Shown one piece after another: positions 1,377-18,901 of a stretch of 36,522 nt of DNA; within the stretch, counting starts at the first letter, position 1; each line of letters starts with the position of its first letter. The translations under genes and the position numbers were made by a program. Origin of the DNA: Gammaproteobacteria bacterium (GTDB lineage: Bacteria > Pseudomonadota > Gammaproteobacteria > JACQPQ01); NCBI GenBank assembly GCA_016207405.1, contig JACQPQ010000062.1:1-36522 (forward strand), in the 5' to 3' direction. Under the pieces are notes generated by a model, which saw nothing but the letters and a program-made list of their open reading frames with translations, was not told the DNA's origin and did not search any database.

Positions 1377-2113
1377 GATGGCAGATCTCTTTTTTTGTAT
1401 CGGTTACCTGTCATATTTTATTATTAGTTGCTTTGTTTTGGGTAGGGTTCCCTCATGTTTTTTCTCCTATTCGTCCCCTCTTTGAGCGCAATATTGACAT
1501 CATAGAGGCCGTGGCCATTGATGAGAGGGAACTGCAAACCGAACTCAAAAAGATTAAAAGTCAAAAACAAGGCGAGAGATCGGCAGAAAAGGCAGCCGGA
1601 GAAGCGCAAAAAAAACGAGTAAAGGAAGAAAAACGACTAGAAGAGCTGAGAATCGAGCGGTTAAAAGAAGCGAAGAAATTAGAAGAACTTAAGAAACAAA
1701 AACAAAAGGAAGAAGAGAACCGAGAACAGAGAGAGCGGGAGCGGATAGAAGAAGAGAAAAAAAGAGCGGAGGCAGAAAAAGCAGCTAAAGTAGCCAAGGA
1801 GAGTGCAGAACGAGCCAGTGCAGAAAAAACTCGTTTAGCACAGGAAAAAGTTGGCTACTATGTTGATGTCATCAAACAAAAAATTCAAAGCCATTGGATA
1901 CCTTCAGGACAGAATTTGTCCTGCCTCCTTCGCATAAGACTTTTACCAGGTGGTAGTGTTGTAGGGGTTGCGGTGATAGAAGGGAGTGGCTCATTGGCTT
2001 TTGATGATTCTGCCGTTCGAGCGGTGCATAAGGCTTCTCCCTTACCTGTTCCACAAGAGCCAGAATTATGGAATCAGTTTAGAGATTTTACTGTACGCTT
2101 TAAACCACAATGA
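1373..2113 (+). CDS. tolA: Cell envelope integrity protein TolA
   Basis: TolA bridges the TolQR motor in the inner membrane to TolB/Pal at the outer membrane. The 246-residue protein has one N-terminal membrane helix (about 5-27). A long charged, Lys/Glu/Arg/Ala-rich helical domain (about 55-155) follows, with many EEKKR-type stretches. The C-terminal TolA domain (about 160-246) contains the WIPSGQNLSCLLRIRLLPGG region and ends with FRDFTVRFKP. It is shorter than Escherichia coli TolA (about 420 residues), mostly in the helical domain, which varies between species. ATG 1373 overlaps the tolR stop as ATGA, and its own stop overlaps the tolB start in the same way, suggesting translational coupling. 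Confidence 0.93.
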   Translation: MRWQISFFVSVTCHILLLVALFWVGFPHVFSPIRPLFERNIDIIEAVAIDERELQTELKKIKSQKQGERSAEKAAGEAQKKRVKEEKRLEELRIERLKEAKKLEELKKQKQKEEENREQRERERIEEEKKRAEAEKAAKVAKESAERASAEKTRLAQEKVGYYVDVIKQKIQSHWIPSGQNLSCLLRIRLLPGGSVVGVAVIEGSGSLAFDDSAVRAVHKASPLPVPQEPELWNQFRDFTVRFKPQ

Positions 2114-3540
2114 AAGCACTTGACTCTAAAGGTGGTGGTCAGATCGGGCGTGTTTTTTACGTGGCCCCAGCATTCTTTGCCTTCCTATTTTGCGTTCACT
2201 TGGGGTGTGTTCAAGCGGAAATAACAATTGAAATTACGCAAGGGAGTGATAGTGCAGTGCCCATTGCTATTCTTCCTTTTGGGCAAGAGGCGCCTATTGC
2301 CCCGTTTTCGAGTGTCATCCAGCAGGATCTACAAAGAAGTGGACGGTTTCAAGCGGTTCAGAGCCATAAGTTTCCAGAAAAAGCTGTGCGTTCCAGTGAA
2401 CTCACTCTTTCAGCCTGGCAGAATTTAGGGGTAGAAAGTATTGTTGTGGGCCGCATTCAGCCACTTTCCTCTTCACAGTACCAAGTCATTTTTGAATTGG
2501 TGGATGTCTATAAAGGGCAGCAGAAAATGTTGCCTTCCCAAAATGGAACACCCGACAATCCGTCTCTTTTTATTCAAAATAATTCTGTTTTGCTGGCGCA
2601 AGAATTTATCATTCACGCAAGTGAATCTAGAAAACTCGCGCATCAAATTAGTGACATAATTTACGAAAGACTAACTGGGGAAAGGGGCATTGCTCTGACT
2701 CGAATTGCCTACGTATCCGTTGTTGTAGAAAGTAAGCAGGGCTCAGAGTATCGCTTGGAAGTTGCAGATCTCGATGGGTTTAACCCCAGGGTTATTATGC
2801 GTTCGAAGAAGCCTTTAATGTCCCCAGACTGGTCGAAAGATGGCAGCAAAATTGCTTACGTTTCGTTTGAGAACGGTCGTTCAGAAATTTTTATTCAGAA
2901 TGTTTCGACAGGCAGAAGAGAAAAGATAGCGCCTTATATGGGGCTTAATACTGCCCCAGCCTGGTCTCCCGATGGAAACAAGCTGGCACTCTCACTTTCC
3001 AAAGACGGCAATTCAGAAATCTATGTCCTCCATTTAGAAACAAAGCGTCTAGAGCGGCTTACGAATGATGGAGCTATTGACACAGAACCTGCTTGGGCAC
3101 CAGATGGGAAAGCATTGATCTTTACTTCAGACCGGGGGGGAGAGGGGAAGCCTCAGATCTATCAATTTTCCTTCGAAACCCGCGCCACGAAGCGCCTGAC
3201 TTTTGAAGGGGACTACAATGCACGGGGAAGATTTACATCTGATGGTAGACACATTATCATGGTGAATCGTCAAAATGGTCAGTTTCATATTGCCGTGCAA
3301 GAGGTAGAAACGGGTACGGTGTTCTGGCTTACGGATGGCGTTTTTGATGAATCGCCGACTGTGGCACCGAATGGCAGACTCGTGCTTTATGCCACAAAAG
3401 AAGGGGGGAAAGGGTTACTTCAAGCGGTTTCTGTGGATGGAAGAGTTCGGCTTCGTTTACCTGCAAGGGAAGGAGAAATTCGGGAACCCGCATGGTCTCC
3501 ATTCCCAATAGGGTTAAGAGGAAAGGGGTTATCTTTATAA
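2110..3540 (+). CDS. tolB: Tol-Pal system beta-propeller protein TolB
   Basis: TolB is the periplasmic protein that binds Pal and TolA. The 476-residue product begins with a long signal sequence (hydrophobic about 15-33, likely cleavage after VQA at residue 36). An N-terminal TolB domain follows (about 40-195, starting VPIAILPFG). Then comes a six-bladed propeller with repeated WSPDG-like motifs: PDWSKDGSKIAYVS, PAWSPDGNKLALS, PAWAPDGKALIFTSDRGG. It is some 40 residues longer than the common length, mainly at the N-terminus. ATG 2110 overlaps the tolA stop (ATGA). The end, SPFPIG, is followed by a short unusual tail (GLRGKGLSL). Confidence 0.95.
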   Translation: MKALDSKGGGQIGRVFYVAPAFFAFLFCVHLGCVQAEITIEITQGSDSAVPIAILPFGQEAPIAPFSSVIQQDLQRSGRFQAVQSHKFPEKAVRSSELTLSAWQNLGVESIVVGRIQPLSSSQYQVIFELVDVYKGQQKMLPSQNGTPDNPSLFIQNNSVLLAQEFIIHASESRKLAHQISDIIYERLTGERGIALTRIAYVSVVVESKQGSEYRLEVADLDGFNPRVIMRSKKPLMSPDWSKDGSKIAYVSFENGRSEIFIQNVSTGRREKIAPYMGLNTAPAWSPDGNKLALSLSKDGNSEIYVLHLETKRLERLTNDGAIDTEPAWAPDGKALIFTSDRGGEGKPQIYQFSFETRATKRLTFEGDYNARGRFTSDGRHIIMVNRQNGQFHIAVQEVETGTVFWLTDGVFDESPTVAPNGRLVLYATKEGGKGLLQAVSVDGRVRLRLPAREGEIREPAWSPFPIGLRGKGLSL

Positions 3541-4455: not shown

Positions 4456-4496
4456 GTAGGGTGGACAAAGCGAGCGAAGCGAGCGGTCCACCCTAC
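4456..4496. repeat. 41-bp palindromic repeat, GTAGGGTGGAC family (copy 1)
   Basis: The arms GTAGGGTGGAC and GTCCACCCTAC enclose GCGAGCGAAGCGAGCG-like sequence. Related copies lie at 15053-15093 and 18865-18901. This copy begins on the base after the cpoB stop codon. It has no T-run, so it is not itself a typical terminator. Confidence 0.8.
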
Positions 4497-6047: not shown

Positions 6048-7253
6048 TTATCGCGGAATAAGCTTCTTGAAGCGAAGCGCCAGGAGTTTAATAAACCCTC
6101 CGGCATCGCTTTGGCAATAGCACCCTCCATCTTCTTCAAAGGTTGCTATGCGACTGTCATAAAGGGAATGCCCACTGGAACGCCTTCCAACCACCCACAC
6201 ATTGCCTTTGTAAAGTTTGAGCCGTACTTCCCCATGGACAGTACGTTGGGAATAGTCAATAAGCGCTTGCAGGGCAAATCTTTCTGGTGACCACCACAGA
6301 CCATTATAAATAAGTGCTGCATAGCGAGGCATAAGCTCATCTTTTAAGTGAGCCAGTTCCCGGTCTAATGTGAGAGATTCAATCGCTCTATGCGCCTTTA
6401 AAAGAATAGTTCCCCCCGGCGTTTCATAGCACCCTCTTGACTTCATCCCCACCACGCGATTTTCAACGATATCGAGACGGCCAATTCCGTGTTCGCCCCC
6501 TAAGCTATTCAAACGACCCAGCACGTCTTCAGGCGAAAACGCCTCTCCATCGAGCGCAACGAGATCACCGTTTTCAAAATGTAAAGTGACACCCTGTGGA
6601 GTGGAAGGCGCTTGTTCAGGAGAGGTTGTCCACTGCCACATGGACTCCTCTGGCGGCACCCAAGGATCTTCCAAGGCACCTCCTTCATAAGAAATATGAA
6701 GCAAGTTGGCATCCGTAGAGTAAGGAGGTTTGTTTTCAGATTTTAGTTCAATGGGAATGTCATGCTGCTTTGCATAGGCTAAGAGTTTTTCTCTAGACGT
6801 TAAATCCCATTCTCGCCAAGGTGCAATGATTTTGATATCGGGCTTGAGCGCATAAGCGCCCAGTTCAAAACGCACTTGGTCATTCCCTTTTCCAGTTGCG
6901 CCATGCGCGATGGTTGACGCCCCCGTTTCCCCTGCAATCTCCACGAGGCGCTTAGCAATCAAGGGCCTTGCAATAGAAGTGCCCAGCAAATACTCTCCTT
7001 CGTAAATCGCATTGGCACGGAACATAGGGAATACGTATTCTTTCGCAAAAGTATTCCTCAAGTTTTCAACGTAAATCGCTTGAGCGCCTAAAAGCTTTGC
7101 TTTTTTGCGAGCCGATTCAATTTCTTCTCCTTGGCCGATATCCGCGGTGAAAGTGATGACTTCCGAGTGATACCGCTCTCGAAGCCAATGGAGGATTACC
7201 GAAGTATCTAAACCACCTGAAAAAGCGAGAACAATTTTTTGAGGGGATGACAT
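6048..7253 (-). CDS. argG: Argininosuccinate synthase
   Basis: ArgG joins citrulline and aspartate using ATP, the penultimate step of arginine synthesis. The 401-residue protein carries the PP-loop AFSGGLDTS at residues 10-18. It also has [10 protein letters not shown], the [13 protein letters not shown] motif and the [15 protein letters not shown] region, all typical of the short bacterial form. I use ATG 7253; a TTG one codon upstream is the alternative. It starts 4 nt after the htpG stop, so the two are co-transcribed. No other arginine gene is in the window. No strong Shine-Dalgarno precedes it, which suggests coupling to htpG translation. Confidence 0.95.
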
Positions 7254-7257
7254 CAAT

Positions 7258-9156
7258 TTATTTAACCCAGGCCAGCTCCTGAAGAAAATGGTTTATTCTT
7301 TGTACAAAGCGAGCGGGATCTTTAAGGTGTCCACCTTCTGCAAGTACCGCTTGGTCAAACAAAACGTGAATCCACTCTTCAAAACGACTGGGATTCACTT
7401 CGCTTTTTATTCGTTTGACTAAAACATGGTGCGGATTGAGTTCGAAGATGGGCTTGCCAGTTGGAAGAGGTTGGCCGGCCGCTTTAAGAATGCGTTCCAT
7501 CTGAGAGGTAATCCCTTGTTCATCTGCTACAAGGCAGGCTGGAGAAGTAGTCAGCCTTTCTGTGGTACGAACGTCCTTCACATCTTCACTTAGCACTTTT
7601 TTGACACGGTCTATCAGATCTTTAAATTCTTCTTCCGTTTTAGCACGCTCTTTTGTGTCGACTTTATCGGCGACGCTGCCGAGATCTAAGGCGCCTTGAG
7701 CGACCGACTGAAAGGACTTCCCGTCAAAATTTTGAAGACTGGCAATAAGCCACTCGTCAATTCGGTCATGGAGTAATAACACTTCAATCTCTTTCTTCCG
7801 AAATATTTCCAGGTGGGGACTGTTTCGAGCTGCGAGGAAACTATCGGCAGAAACATAATAAATATTCTTTTGAGAAAACCTCATTCTGGAAAGGTAGTCG
7901 GTGAGGGCATGAGAAGGCGTCTCTTGGTCGTCCTTTGTCGAAGAAAAGCGTAAAAGTTTGGCTATTTTCTCTCGGTTGGTGATATCTTCGGCAGGGCCTT
8001 CTTTTAAAACAGCTCCAAATTCCTTCCAGACTTCTGCATAGGTTTTAGGATCGTTCTGAGCGGTTTCTTCCAAGAGATCGAGCACTCTTTTAGTAATCGC
8101 CGATTTAATGGTTTCAACGGCTTTTGATTTTTGTAGAATTTCTCGAGAGATATTCAGGGGAAGATCATTCGTGTCCACGACGCCTCTTACAAATCGCAAA
8201 TAAAAAGGTAAGAACTGCTCTACTTCATCCAAAATAAATACCCGTTGAACATAGAGCTTTAACCCGTGTTTGTGATCGCGCAACCAGAGCCCAAAAGGAG
8301 CACGCTTTGGAATGTAAAGGAGAGTAGTATATTCGAGTTTTCCTTCGACTTTGTTATGGGTCCATAGGAGTGGATCTTCAAAATCGTGTGCCACATGTTT
8401 ATAGAATTCTTTATATTCTTCCTCTTTGATTTCGCTTCGTGGCCTTATCCACAGAGCGGTTGCTTTGTTAATGGTTTCATAGGTATGGGTTTCTTTGCCT
8501 TTTTCATCGCGTTTTACCATCAGAATAGGAAAGCGAATGTGATCAGAATACTTATGAATGAGGGTACGAAGTTTAAAATCGTCCAAGAGTTCTTTTTCAT
8601 CTGCTTTGAGATGGAGAATAACATCCGTTCCACGATTCGACTTACGAATGGAAGTCACCGTAAATTCTCCTTGGCCATCCGATTCCCATTCGACGGCATT
8701 CTCATCTGAAGAACCGGCACGTTGGGTTTTTACGGTTACTGTATCGGCCACAATAAAAGAGGAATAAAAACCTACGCCAAACTGACCAATGAGGGAGAGA
8801 TCTTTTGCTTTATCACCCGTTAAGGCAGACAAAAATTCCTGCGTGCCTGATTTGGCAATGGTGCCAAGATGATCGGTCACTTCTTGTTCTGACATGCCAA
8901 TACCATTGTCAGAGACTGTAATAGTTTTGTTAGATTTGTCAGCCGTAATCTGAATTTTAAGTTCAGAGTCTTTTTGGAGAAGCTCTGGCTGCTTCAAGGC
9001 TTCAAAACGGAGTTTATCCAGAGCATCTGAAGCATTTGAGATCAGTTCGCGCAGGAAAATCTCCTTGTTGCTATAGAGCGAATTCACCATCAACCGCAAG
9101 AGTTGTTTAATTTCGGCTTGAAAATGATGTTTTTCTTTTGTTTTCACGATAGTCAT
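7258..9156 (-). CDS. htpG: Molecular chaperone HtpG (Hsp90)
   Basis: HtpG is the bacterial Hsp90, an ATP-dependent dimeric cytosolic chaperone. The 632-residue protein has the GHKL ATPase domain at the N-terminus with [26 protein letters not shown] and GQFGVGFYS. The middle domain contains RAPFGLW and [12 protein letters not shown], and the C-terminal dimerisation domain is full length. ATG 9156 follows GAGG directly. I looked for a sigma-32 promoter in 9157-9294 and found no convincing match. It heads a two-gene unit with argG. Confidence 0.97.
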
Positions 9157-15052: not shown

Positions 15053-15093
15053 GGTGGACCGCTCGCAAAAAGCGCTCGCTTTGTCCACCCTAC
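15053..15093. repeat. Palindromic repeat, GTAGGGTGGAC family (copy 2)
   Basis: The arms GGTGGAC and GTCCACC flank CGCTCGCAAAAAGCGCTCGC, followed by CTAC. It is the same family as 4456-4496 and in the same orientation as 18865-18901. Confidence 0.75.
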
Positions 15094-15171: not shown

Positions 15172-16239
15172 CTAAGAATAATACGTTTGATACCAGAGAA
15201 CAAAGCGTTCAATGCCAACGGAAATAGGAGTCGTCGGTTTAAATCCAACCTCTTGCTTCAGATCATCACAATCCGCATAGGTTTCTGGAACATCCCCAGC
15301 CTGTAAAGGAAGATATTTTTTTTTAGCTTCTACGCCAAGCGCACGTCCAAGCAATCTAATCAGCTCCTCCAAATCTACAGGATTTTGATTACCCATATTA
15401 TAAAGACGATACGGCGCACTGCTCTTGCCTGGCACGCGAGAAGATCTCTCCCAAGAAGGGTTTGGGGTTGGAATATGCTCGCACACGCGTAATATCCCTT
15501 CGACAACGTCATCAATATACGTAAAGTCTCTCTTCATTTTGCCATAGTTGTAAACATCAATGGTCTTCCCGGCAAGCAGAGCCTCTGTGAATTTAAAAAT
15601 AGCCATGTCAGGCCGACCCCAGGGTCCATAGACTGTAAAAAATCTTAACCCCGTCGTCGGGATCTGATAAAGATAAGAATACGTGTGCGCCATCAACTCA
15701 TTCGCCTTTTTGGTGGCCGCATACATCGAAATAGGATGGTCAACGTTGTGAGAAACTGAAAAAGGCTTTTTTTGATTCAGTCCATATACAGAGCTGGAAG
15801 AAGCATAAACCAAGTGCTTAACATTCGAATGTCGACAGCCTTCTAAAATATTCAAAAATCCTACCACATTGCTATCAACATACACAAAAGGATTTTCGAG
15901 CGAATAGCGCACCCCCGCCTGAGCAGCCAAATGAATCACACTATCGAAGTTGAACTTCTGGAATAACTCTAAAGTCTTGACCTTTTCTCGTAAATCAAGT
16001 TCGACAAAAGAAAAATTTGGAAAAGGAGTTAACTGAGAAAGCCTATCTTTTTTAAGCGCTACACTGTAATAAGGATTTAAATTATCTATCCCAACGACTT
16101 CTTTTCCCAACTGAAGCAACCGGTGTGCGGTGTGATACCCAATAAATCCTGCAACCCCCGTTACCAAAATACGAATGACGTCTCTCCCCGCTAACCCCCT
16201 ATTGAGTTTGTAGTGTGGGTTTTCTGGCTCAACTTGCAT
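15172..16239 (-). CDS. NAD-dependent UDP-sugar 4-epimerase (CapI/UDP-glucuronate epimerase-like)
   Basis: This is a short-chain dehydrogenase/reductase of the extended UDP-sugar epimerase class. It probably interconverts a UDP-uronic acid and its 4-epimer for capsule or LPS synthesis. The Rossmann motif GVAGFIG is at 28-34, and IDNLNPYYSVALKKDRL is the signature that favours the CapI/LpsL (UDP-glucuronate 4-epimerase) group over GalE. The catalytic pair is Tyr173 and Lys177 in SMYAATKKANE, with the SSSSVYG strand before it. I use ATG 16239 (355 residues); ATG 16305 is also in frame. Either start leaves an extra 20-45 residues before the usual IRILVTG beginning. The substrate is inferred. Confidence 0.85.
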   Translation of the reverse strand: MQVEPENPHYKLNRGLAGRDVIRILVTGVAGFIGYHTAHRLLQLGKEVVGIDNLNPYYSVALKKDRLSQLTPFPNFSFVELDLREKVKTLELFQKFNFDSVIHLAAQAGVRYSLENPFVYVDSNVVGFLNILEGCRHSNVKHLVYASSSSVYGLNQKKPFSVSHNVDHPISMYAATKKANELMAHTYSYLYQIPTTGLRFFTVYGPWGRPDMAIFKFTEALLAGKTIDVYNYGKMKRDFTYIDDVVEGILRVCEHIPTPNPSWERSSRVPGKSSAPYRLYNMGNQNPVDLEELIRLLGRALGVEAKKKYLPLQAGDVPETYADCDDLKQEVGFKPTTPISVGIERFVLWYQTYYS

Positions 16240-16306
16240 GGGTGATACCCTACCACAATTCGTTAAGACGTTGGATAAGTCTTGAATAGAACTTGCTAAC
16301 TCCATT

Positions 16307-16359
16307 CATTTCGACAATAATAGAAATAAGCATATATTTTTATTATAAAAATCGAAATG
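16307..16359. promoter_or_regulatory. Candidate promoter/operator of the wHTH-nucleotidyltransferase pair
   Basis: Two nested inverted repeats precede the + strand start at 16357. CATTTCGA (16307-16314) is mirrored by TCGAAATG (16352-16359), which contains the start codon. Just upstream, ATTTTTA and TAAAAAT (16336-16352) flank a 3-nt spacer in a very AT-rich block. The arrangement fits autorepression by the winged-helix protein; this is inference. Confidence 0.4.
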
Positions 16360-16947
16360 AAAAAAGTTGAAATCATTTGGCGGGAGCTTTTATATCAAAG
16401 TCTAGAGAAACAAGTCTTTCGTTTTACGCAAAAAAATTTGGCTGCACGATTCAAAGTTTCTGTCAGTACAGTGCATCAGGCAATTAGTCTCCCCAGAAAA
16501 TTACATGCCGTACGTGTGACCGGTCGATATTTTGAAATGATTCAGGTAGAAAAAATACTGTATTTGTGGGGAACTTATCGAAATCCTTTTAAAGAACTGA
16601 TCTATGAAACCTTTGTTGCCCAATCGGCTGCTCACATTGAAGGACAATTGCCGCCCGGAACTTTGTTAACAGGGTACGGGGGGTTTAAAGAACGGTTTCA
16701 TAATACTCCTGCAGAGTACGCCCATGTTTATTGTTATTCAGAAAATCTTAACGAGATTAAAAGACGATTTCCCGCTAACAAACAGCAAGCGCCTAACTTG
16801 TGTGTATTTTCTCCTGATCTATTTTTAAAATTATACCCTGCGCTGCCTCTCGCGCAGATTTTTGTCGATATTTGGAATTTACCAGAATGGTATTCAAAAG
16901 ATTTTATTGCAGCCTTTAGACACAACTATGCCACAGTTTTGGAATGA
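16357..16947 (+). CDS. Winged-helix protein, AbiEi-like putative antitoxin/regulator
   Basis: The N-terminal 70 residues look like a winged helix-turn-helix: an early helix (IIWRELLYQSLE), then FTQKNLAARFKVSVSTVHQAI (about 22-43) and a wing containing VRVTGRYFEM. The remaining 120 residues contain LPPGTLLTGYGGFKERF and end with QIFVDIWNLPEWYSKDFIAAF. I recognise these only as resembling uncharacterised partners of nucleotidyltransferases; I cannot name a family with certainty. ATG 16357 follows an AT-rich palindromic promoter region but lacks a good Shine-Dalgarno. Its end overlaps the next gene by 20 nt, so the two form a unit. Both lie on the strand opposite to the surrounding polysaccharide genes. 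By analogy with AbiEi/AbiEii this would be the DNA-binding antitoxin. Confidence 0.6.
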   Translation: MKKVEIIWRELLYQSLEKQVFRFTQKNLAARFKVSVSTVHQAISLPRKLHAVRVTGRYFEMIQVEKILYLWGTYRNPFKELIYETFVAQSAAHIEGQLPPGTLLTGYGGFKERFHNTPAEYAHVYCYSENLNEIKRRFPANKQQAPNLCVFSPDLFLKLYPALPLAQIFVDIWNLPEWYSKDFIAAFRHNYATVLE

Positions 16948-17530
16948 CAATATAACGCAAAAAAGTTTCGATTTTTTGCGTTCGCTTGGCAAACACTATC
17001 AATTTGTATTGATTGGCGGATGGGCGATTTATCTTTATACCCATGCAATGAAATCAAAAGATGTCGATATTGTTTGTCCTTTTGAGGAATTTGCCAAATT
17101 AAAATCCGATTATATCGTCACTAAAAATCCACGATTAAAGAAATATGAAGTTAAGTGTGATGGTTTTGATTTAGATATCTATGTGCCATTTTATTCAGAA
17201 TTAGGGGTAAAACCAGAAGTGCTGCTGGAAACGGCAATTACCCAAGAAGGGTTTAAAGTTCCCAGATTGCGAGATTTAGTGATTTTAAAGCTTTTTGCTT
17301 ACCATGATCGGCGGGGGACTTTAAAAGGGGAAAAAGACAGAATTGACATTCTGAGCATTCTTAAAAATTGCACAGTCGATATAAAAGAGTTACAGCAAAA
17401 ATTGCAGGAGGGGAAAAAAGAAAATTTATTTGCAGAATTTAAGAACTTACTCACTACCACCAGAAGCGTTCCCGAATTAGAAATCACTGATTATGCCATG
17501 AAAAAAATCAAAAAACGTTATGCATTTTAA
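16928..17530 (+). CDS. Nucleotidyltransferase, AbiEii/MNT-like putative toxin
   Basis: This 200-residue protein has the polymerase-beta-type nucleotidyltransferase core. LIGGWAIYLY carries the GG motif (Gly30-Gly31), KSKDVDIV supplies the Asp45/Asp47 metal pair, and FDLDIYV supplies a third acidic strand (Asp81/Asp83). The C-terminal part has LRDLVILKLFAYHDRRGTLKGEKDRIDI, like the KLxA...R...KDxxD stretch in AbiEii-type and COG2253-like proteins. ATG 16928 is preferred over an upstream in-frame ATG at 16862, because the fold begins just after it and it overlaps the partner by only 20 nt. Nucleotide and target are unknown. AbiEii-type toxins act on tRNA or nucleotides, but that cannot be inferred here beyond fold. 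Confidence 0.7.
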   Translation: MPQFWNDNITQKSFDFLRSLGKHYQFVLIGGWAIYLYTHAMKSKDVDIVCPFEEFAKLKSDYIVTKNPRLKKYEVKCDGFDLDIYVPFYSELGVKPEVLLETAITQEGFKVPRLRDLVILKLFAYHDRRGTLKGEKDRIDILSILKNCTVDIKELQQKLQEGKKENLFAEFKNLLTTTRSVPELEITDYAMKKIKKRYAF

Positions 17531-17566: not shown

Positions 17567-18853
17567 TCATAACCGCCAGACTTTAAATCCCACCGCTTCT
17601 AAACGTTGTCTGTCAAACGCGGACTTTACATCAATAAAAGGAGCGCCTTCTTTTATTTTCTGAGCCAGCGCTTCGATATCGATGCGGAGAATCTCTTGAT
17701 GCGGAACGGCCGCAATCACTGCAGAGTAGAACGAGTGTTGTCTCCAGTCCACTAGCTCTAGTTCATAGGCTCTGTATGCTTCTGCCTGTTCGACCACTGG
17801 ATCCCAAACAAAACTCTTCACCCCATAAGAGATAAGTTCCTGGATAATATCAACAACCCGTGTATTACGAATATCTCGACAATTTTCTTTGAAGGCAAGG
17901 CCCATCACAAGACAAGAAGCTCCCTTCACAGGTTGTTCATGGCGAATCAATTGCTTTACAGTTTGTTCGGCAATAAATTTCCCCATCCCATCATTGATCC
18001 GACGCCCTGCTAAAATAACTTGGGGGTGATACCCCATCTGCTCCGCTTTATACGTGAGATAATACGGATCGACACCAATACAATGGCCACCCACCAACCC
18101 AGGCTTAAAAGGCAAAAAATTCCACTTGGTGCTTGCGGCCTCAAGCACGCTTGACGTATCAATGTTAAGCGCCTTAAAAATAATCGCAAGCTCATTCACC
18201 AGTGCGATATTTAAGTCCCGCTGAGTGTTTTCAATCACTTTTGCCGCTTCAGCCACTTGGATGCTCGAAGCCTTATAAACGCCAGCAGGGATAATCGTTT
18301 CATACAGCGCTGCGATTTTTTCTACCGTTTCCAGATCTTGCCCTGCTACGACTTTAACAATCGTTTCTAACGTATGTTTTTTATCTCCCGGATTGATACG
18401 CTCTGGAGAATACCCCACTTTAAACCCTTCTCCACATAAGAGGCCTGAATACTGTTCTAATAAGGGCACACAGACTTCTTCAGTTACTCCGGGATAAACG
18501 GTCGATTCATAAATGACCACCGCACCTTGTTTCATATTCTGCGCCACTATTTTTGTGGCTTCTCTCACAAGGGTTAAATCAGGCTGCTTAGCAGAATCCA
18601 CAGGTGTTGGAACGGCAACAATAATAAAATCTGCTTCCTTTAGGGCCATAGGCGAAGCGGTGAGCTGAAGATGGGTGGCCTTTGTAAAGTCAGCTAAAGA
18701 AAATTCTTTAGCTGGATCAGTTTTTTTCTGGTAAGCGTGGATCTTCTCTTCCGAAACATCAAAACCAATGGTAGAAAGGGTTCGACCAAATGCCAACGCC
18801 AGTGGCAAGCCCACATAGCCGAGGCCTACAATTGCAATAATAGGGTTTTTCAT
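17567..18853 (-). CDS. UDP-N-acetylhexosamine/UDP-sugar 6-dehydrogenase (TviB/WecC family)
   Basis: This NAD-dependent enzyme oxidises C6 of a nucleotide sugar twice to give a uronic acid used in surface polysaccharide. The 428-residue protein has the Rossmann motif IVGLGYVGLPLA (8-19), then VPTPVD and YESTVYPG in the N-domain. The active-site Cys258 is in GGHCIGVDPYYL, followed by the QVILAGRRIND stretch that is very like TviB/Vi-antigen UDP-GlcNAc dehydrogenases. The C-terminal UDP-binding domain (GLAFKENCRDIRNTR) is complete. It precedes the epimerase on the same strand, separated by the inserted + strand pair. No clear ribosome binding site is seen; a palindrome ends 11 nt upstream. Confidence 0.9.
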   Translation of the reverse strand: MKNPIIAIVGLGYVGLPLALAFGRTLSTIGFDVSEEKIHAYQKKTDPAKEFSLADFTKATHLQLTASPMALKEADFIIVAVPTPVDSAKQPDLTLVREATKIVAQNMKQGAVVIYESTVYPGVTEEVCVPLLEQYSGLLCGEGFKVGYSPERINPGDKKHTLETIVKVVAGQDLETVEKIAALYETIIPAGVYKASSIQVAEAAKVIENTQRDLNIALVNELAIIFKALNIDTSSVLEAASTKWNFLPFKPGLVGGHCIGVDPYYLTYKAEQMGYHPQVILAGRRINDGMGKFIAEQTVKQLIRHEQPVKGASCLVMGLAFKENCRDIRNTRVVDIIQELISYGVKSFVWDPVVEQAEAYRAYELELVDWRQHSFYSAVIAAVPHQEILRIDIEALAQKIKEGAPFIDVKSAFDRQRLEAVGFKVWRL

Positions 18854-18864
18854 TTGCTTTAGTT

Positions 18865-18901
18865 GGTGGACCGCTCGCTACGCTCGCTTTGTCCACCCTA
18901 C
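18865..18901. repeat. Palindromic repeat, GTAGGGTGGAC family (copy 3)
   Basis: GGTGGACCGCTCGC and GCTCGCTTTGTCCACC with a short loop, then CTAC. It has the same orientation as 15053-15093. In the minus-strand mRNA it would form a hairpin ending 11 nt before the dehydrogenase start codon. Confidence 0.75.

Follow-up and report, generated by a model that had tools for sequence, protein, structure and literature searches.

In the AbiE system of Streptococcus agalactiae, a nucleotidyltransferase toxin carrying motifs I to IV (AbiEii, COG2253) is paired with a two-domain winged helix-turn-helix (wHTH) antitoxin (AbiEi, COG5340), which uses two 23-bp inverted repeats in the promoter (PMC3985639). 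Pairs of COG4861 and COG4849 proteins (AbiEi_2, PF09952, with an AbiEii/DUF1814 nucleotidyltransferase), in which the antitoxin-like wHTH gene comes first and is overlapped by the nucleotidyltransferase gene, have been listed as AbiE relatives, with KLxAaxxR as motif III of COG4849 and +DxxD as motif IV of DUF1814 (PMC3985639). The MenT1 and MenT3 toxins of the Mycobacterium tuberculosis MenAT1 and MenAT3 systems are nucleotidyltransferases that act on tRNA, and have an S/T-x-D-x-D site in which the phosphoacceptor precedes the first Asp by two residues; the MenT3 (TglT) peptide GIPDSRTSKDFDTVAR is phosphorylated at S78 (PMC7205606). HEPN/MNT units (HepT-MntA) also combine a minimal nucleotidyltransferase with a second gene, and in MntA-HepT the antitoxin is the nucleotidyltransferase (PMC7641770).

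Here we analyze a two-gene unit, A-B, that is probably a compact AbiE-like (COG4861–COG4849-like) toxin-antitoxin module. Systems of this kind are known, and none of the libraries searched has a family name for its lineage.

The A-B locus

The window, a stretch of 36,522 nt from the 1.45-Mb genome of a gammaproteobacterium (73 contigs, 94% complete), contains tolQ/R/A/B-, pal-, lipA/B- and hldE-like ORFs, judged from their translations, and resembles an ordinary proteobacterial chromosome. A preliminary description had placed in it a wHTH gene and a nucleotidyltransferase gene overlapping by 20 nt, on the strand opposite to a UDP-sugar dehydrogenase and an epimerase. Both ORFs were found at these positions with A first and the overlap as claimed, and the flanking genes were identified by their Pfam domains:

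15172-16305, minus strand: epimerase (PF01370, E 9e-58)
16357..16947, plus strand: gene A, ATG start, 196 aa; winged-helix protein, predicted antitoxin/autorepressor (AbiEi_2/COG4861-like)
16928..17530, plus strand: gene B, ATG start, 200 aa; nucleotidyltransferase of the DNA polymerase beta type, predicted toxin (AbiEii/DUF1814-like)
17567-18853, minus strand: UDP-glucose/GDP-mannose dehydrogenase (UDP-sugar dehydrogenase; PF03721/00984/03720)

The GC content of the pair is 36.6%, compared to 44.5% for the window, and equally low values were found in 0.4% of the contig segments of the same size as the pair. In a repeat search, neither a target-site duplication nor a terminal inverted repeat was clearly visible around the pair. 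A REP-like palindrome, GGTGGACCGCTCGC-N-GCTCGCTTTGTCCACC with a short variable loop, was observed at 4460-4492 (minus strand), 15053-15089 (plus) and 18865-18897 (plus), the last two being direct copies that flank the segment formed by the epimerase, the A-B pair and the dehydrogenase; the genome holds 30 exact copies of it and 0 of a reversed control.

Gene B encodes a nucleotidyltransferase with AbiEii/DUF1814 motifs and a MenT1-like predicted fold

The core and third acidic strand attributed to B in the preliminary description were located at G30 G31, S43-K44-D45-V46-D47, and D83 within FDLDIYV. The motifs of B are distributed as follows:

17009..17074, plus strand: motifs I and II, LIGGWAIYLYTHAMKSKDVDIV; predicted phosphoacceptor S43 and predicted catalytic D45/D47
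17174..17176, plus strand: third acidic residue D83 (D in 8/9 sequences, E in 1/9)
17288..17311, plus strand: motif III, KLFAYHDR, fitting KLxAaxxR of COG4849
17333..17347, plus strand: motif IV, KDRID (+DxxD); K136, D137 and D140 kept in 8/8 sequences covering the site

LIGG (motif I, hGG), DVD (motif II, DhD), KLFAYHDR and KDRID thus represent all four AbiEii/DUF1814 motifs. The GG and KSKDxD signatures, and with them S43 of the S/T-x-D-x-D site, are invariant in 9/9 B orthologues; in motif III the K and R are invariant and the L and A vary, and K-G-x-K-D-x-x-D is conserved wherever the sequence spans the region. The S-K-D-x-D of B is the same as S78-K79-D80-F81-D82 of MenT3, whereas the motif II arginine (R76 of MenT3, two residues before S78) is absent from the B family, which has M, L or I at position 41, followed by K42.

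A structural model of B generated with AF2 from 6 sequences (pLDDT 90.8, pTM 0.87) had as its best PDB matches JHP933 of H. pylori and MenT1, the latter in free form as well as in its MenA1 complex (E 1e-5 to 5e-5); Foldseek comparison with the MenT1 entries 8an4/8an5 gave E values of about 3e-5 and TM scores up to 0.62. The model also matched AbiEi (6Y8Q). Structure prediction, proposed as a check in the preliminary description, yielded a fold matching MenT1 in a protein whose motifs match AbiEii/DUF1814. The antitoxin MenA1 is unrelated (PMC11375011), and the PDB search gave no sequence match of B to MenT or of A to AbiEi.

At the level of sequence families, the window B falls below the Pfam cut-offs for DUF6036 (21.1 vs 23.6 bits) and AbiEii (PF08843; 18.6 vs 22.5 bits). 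On the other hand, its orthologue in L009 scores 31.0 bits over residues 26-183, above the AbiEii cut-off of 22.5 bits, and that in L008 passes the DUF6036 cut-off, which places the B lineage between both Pfam families. PADLOC produced weak, sub-threshold matches for the window proteins (mad1 for A, E 0.0098; AbiEii for B, E 0.049), and NCBIfam gave no match to either. In a profile comparison, B scored 35.5 against the cognate AbiEii proteins of the AbiEi_2-type set described below, with a permuted maximum of 19.6; B is shorter than these proteins (200 aa vs 264-296 aa).

Outside the pair lineage, B is most closely related to DUF6036 nucleotidyltransferases encoded on plasmids and chromosomes of proteobacteria (L005, L006, L007, L010 and L011; about 31-34% over the core), which differ in having no A homologue alongside, in being adjoined by another small ORF, and in not always presenting the S of SKDxD. 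Such a gene lies beside a small uncharacterised ORF, in the same or divergent direction, at L006:2842-3983, L007:2348-3464, L010:3461-4624 and L011:3430-4651, possibly forming another two-gene unit; the small ORFs of L006 and L011 share the motif AYGFxDYAAREx. An annotated DUF6036 nucleotidyltransferase gene was also observed near an AbiEi-AbiEii pair on a Fibrella plasmid (L044:1-1045 and 1528-3313).

Protein A is a winged-helix protein with a divergent C-terminal domain

Two regions were delimited in A:

16366..16542, plus strand: winged helix-turn-helix, about residues 4-62 (AF2 and HTH_Crp_2 matches)
16582..16944, plus strand: C-terminal domain, residues 76-196, predicted antitoxicity domain (alignment A4, of 9 A proteins)

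HTH_Crp_2 matches 7/9 members of the A family (best E 2.8e-6), and in the window copy all HTH matches are sub-threshold in Pfam. The AF2 model reached a pLDDT of about 90 at residues 20-60, with a poor model of the C-terminal domain, and Foldseek returned mostly generic winged-helix matches. A HEPN/MNT variant, one of the options raised in the preliminary description, found no support: the partner is a winged helix instead of a HEPN protein, and the HEPN motif R-x4-6-H is absent from 8/9 A proteins, its single match in the ninth being N-terminal.

For comparison, and with L041 as the starting point, we collected 11 AbiEi_2-type proteins, 9 of which are immediately followed by a nucleotidyltransferase-like gene; PF09952 (AbiEi_2) is probably the Pfam name of COG4861. 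Alignment of A4 with these antitoxins by hhalign (probability 95.1%, E 3.3e-8, 159 columns) covered both domains, most of the score coming from the HTH part, which scored 53.6 when the domains were split, and showed the same layout of an HTH followed by a C-terminal domain. In contrast to the collected proteins (305-372 aa), A (196 aa) lacks a roughly 150-aa N-terminal region. No Pfam AbiEi_2 match was found in A even at E 10.

The C-terminal half of A, left unassigned in the preliminary description, contains the conserved motifs GYSAxxxRFxxxPADYDKVYVY, degenerate in the window copy, and FVDLWNL. Against the full AbiEi_2-type profile this part alone scored 17.7, in a collinear position, with a permuted maximum of 17.5, and against the C-terminal AbiEi_2 profile it scored 15.8, a score reached by 8/60 permutations, with a permuted 95% point of 17.1. 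These scores are borderline relative to the permuted ones, and its membership in AbiEi_2 is no more than plausible: the domain is collinear with the AbiEi_2 antitoxin domain, but not significantly similar to it on its own.

The C-terminal domain of A also shows the GG-x13-DxD spacing of B (in L008, GGYSAYQARFKEAPADYD), degenerate in the window copy; in addition, the B model matches AbiEi 6Y8Q, as noted above, and nucleotidyltransferases are found among the DALI matches of AbiEi (PMC7319586). These features could mean that A-B is a streamlined, Patescibacteria-typical AbiE-like lineage that crossed into a gammaproteobacterium and whose antitoxin domain is a decayed nucleotidyltransferase of the toxin's fold. 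Homology of this domain to B was not supported, as its hhalign score against B was no better than that of permuted columns (16/60 reach it), and the pseudo-nucleotidyltransferase idea is therefore kept as a lead only, in an explanation that we regard as unlikely overall.

A conserved palindrome in the promoter of A

Upstream of A, the following elements were predicted:

16293..16321, plus strand: predicted promoter, with -35 TTGCTA, a 17-nt spacer and -10 AATAAT overlapped by the operator
16305..16361, plus strand: outer 10-bp perfect inverted repeat TTCATTTCGA ... TCGAAATGAA, arms at 16305-16314 and 16352-16361, the second covering the start codon
16309..16326, plus strand: predicted operator TTTCGA-CAATAA-TAGAAA (TTTCGACAATAATAGAAA), a copy of the conserved palindrome TTTCGA-N6-TCGAAA

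The palindrome TTTCGA-N6-TCGAAA was found upstream of A with 0-2 mismatches in 10/11 loci and is missing in L021; matched changes on both arms (TTTCTA...TAGAAA) are present in L018 and L023. It overlaps the -10 element in the window, L008, L009, L016 and L019, whereas in L017, L020 and L022 it occupies the whole spacer that separates TTGAC(T) from TACAAT/TATAAT. The predicted promoter of the window (9/12 matches) is not above shuffled sequences when taken alone, and its geometry is shared with the orthologous loci. This conserved palindrome in the A promoter is new here, and is short compared to the 23-bp repeats used by AbiEi. The outer inverted repeat has an arm length reached by 0.5% of shuffles. 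It was also observed that in L016, L017, L020 and L022 the first codons of A (ATG..AAAATCGAAA, encoding MKKIE/MRKIE) contain another copy of the half-site ATCGAAA of the operator, some 35 nt away from the first arm, and part of the conservation of this peptide may serve DNA binding.

A genome-wide pattern search with TTTCGANNNNNNTMGAAA gave a single match in the genome, at the A promoter. Since a reversed control pattern also matched once, this uniqueness denotes the absence of a regulon, and significance rests on conservation across loci. On the simplest reading A is predicted to be a dedicated autorepressor with no other target.

A-B is a conserved two-gene module, probably spread horizontally

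A scan of genome contigs, with a small B alignment as query, detected two full-length relatives, in a Patescibacteria MAG (L008, 43% identity) and in Ca. Uhrbacteria (L009, 41%); in both, A ends 3 nt before B. The orthologues of A are those of L008, L009, L016, L017, L019, L020, L021 and L022. The unit was found in 9/380 Patescibacteria genomes and in one further MAG, three of the copies being decayed. In these 380 genomes the A profile identified 9 genomes and the B profile (E<=1e-10) 7; B lies directly 3' of A in 7/7 cases, and the 2 A genes without a B match at this threshold correspond to decayed loci. The order A-then-B is found at every locus with both genes intact and is kept across nine loci with identities of 32-54% for A and 35-63% for B, which excludes a chance pair of ORFs. 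The distance matrices of the A and B proteins are correlated (r 0.42, Mantel p 0.015).

Neighbours differ at each locus inspected (by eye, from translations) and include an atpA/atpG-like pair, a glycogen-synthase-like gene and mevalonate-pathway-like genes, none resembling a polysaccharide operon. The survey of co-occurrence and variable loci suggested in the preliminary description thus found every B (E<=1e-10) behind an A, and not the solitary nucleotidyltransferases within polysaccharide operons that it had named as contrary evidence. This strict linkage, together with the differing neighbours, favours a mobile two-gene unit.

Decay has affected several copies. In L018/G611, A is intact but for one TAG and B is reduced to residues 1-35; in L023/G758, a remnant joins residues 1-26 of A immediately to residues 180-199 of B; and in G651, A is open and B is broken after residue about 149, where reading TGA as Gly still leaves B broken. 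These copies fit a dispensable module. No intact B beside a broken A was found among the loci (G889 is divided between a pair of contigs, and G602 is truncated at the end of a contig). Near its A-B pair, genome G668 has two more nucleotidyltransferase-like ORFs (L034:5274-5906 and 6880-7542), carrying TREHDDLDL and MRENHIDIYV as judged by eye.

Searches for A, run on 143 relatives and on 399 genomes from the phylum of the window, detected only its own copy and one chance match, located in a long unrelated ORF of G118; a more sensitive profile of 9 A sequences run on 274 genomes of the class found only its own copy and one match spanning only the HTH, in G980. No other sampled genome of Pseudomonadota contained the unit. 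When viral contigs were scanned with single A and B proteins and with profiles A2 and A3, nothing was found, which provides no evidence of phage carriage, and no pair was detected on a phage or plasmid in the collections searched; tblastn matches of B in phages (E>=0.02) lay in genes bearing a NinI-like phosphatase annotation and were regarded as chance.

Alternative explanations

A-B might be a regulator and a nucleotidyltransferase devoid of toxicity, such as a signalling or RNA-modifying unit switched by A, given that computation does not separate toxins from benign nucleotidyltransferases and that the DUF6036 relatives have no known function, a literature search having found no paper on them. 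The patchy distribution, changing contexts and decayed copies of A-B better fit a dispensable selfish or defence module; a non-toxic unit is considered improbable. Slightly less credit is due to B being an aminoglycoside- or lincosamide-type adenylyltransferase acting on a small molecule, with A as its dedicated regulator: the B model does match ANT(2'')-Ia and LnuA in Foldseek and PF10706 matches weakly in 4/9 B orthologues, but JHP933 and MenT1 rank above, the SKDxD phosphoacceptor and DUF1814 motifs III and IV are conserved, and A always comes first, overlapping B or next to it. Least probable is a housekeeping or polysaccharide-linked unit, in which a regulator accompanies a nucleotidyltransferase that modifies sugar nucleotides or acceptors in the service of the exopolysaccharide cluster around it. 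This role is suggested by the position between the epimerase and the UDP-sugar dehydrogenase but opposed by the location on the other strand, with a predicted promoter and operator belonging to the pair itself, the low GC, the unrelated neighbours of the orthologous loci inspected, and an operator found once in the genome, with no A regulon predicted.

Proposed mechanism and significance

The conserved linkage of A and B, the MenT1-like predicted fold and the AbiEii/DUF1814 motifs support the earlier proposal that a wHTH protein and a minimal nucleotidyltransferase form here an AbiE-type toxin-antitoxin or defence unit. As the motif II arginine is absent, the window B is sub-threshold in Pfam and the C-terminal domain of A has diverged, formal AbiE membership is held back. 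In this probable AbiE-like module, the winged helix of A would bind the promoter palindrome and repress the operon, and its C-terminal domain would neutralise B. Neutralisation would most likely proceed by A positioning the nucleotide bound to B itself so that S43 becomes phosphorylated, as occurs at S78 of MenT3 and T39 of MenT1; we infer this self-phosphorylation step from the MenT toxins (PMC11375011, PMC7205606) and the invariant serine. When the level of A falls, free B would probably transfer nucleotides to a cellular target, which by analogy with MenT toxins could be tRNA 3' ends, and growth would stop. Phage defence may be proposed by analogy, and the unit, as a cassette of two genes, would move from one genome to another.

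In groundwater bacteria, AbiE ranks as one of the more common defence families (PMC12259885), and a patescibacterium whose host is a gammaproteobacterium has been reported to have AbiEii–AbiEi (PMC13059738); no description of the A-B lineage was found in either work. The sub-threshold PADLOC scores, and the Pfam scores below cut-off for the window copy, illustrate that the toxin-antitoxin and defence content of Patescibacteria is hard to detect with current models. This minimal AbiE-like unit of 196+200 aa provides a clear rule for its recognition, consisting of the A profile, the B profile and TTTCGA-N6-TCGAAA, and offers a small system in which to test antitoxin-induced self-phosphorylation of a nucleotidyltransferase. 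Outside the gammaproteobacterium of the window, A-B is found mainly in Patescibacteria, and was probably acquired horizontally by this bacterium from a pool circulating among them, the direction of transfer being the one we infer. A module common to Patescibacteria and a gammaproteobacterium with a small genome points to gene flow between both.
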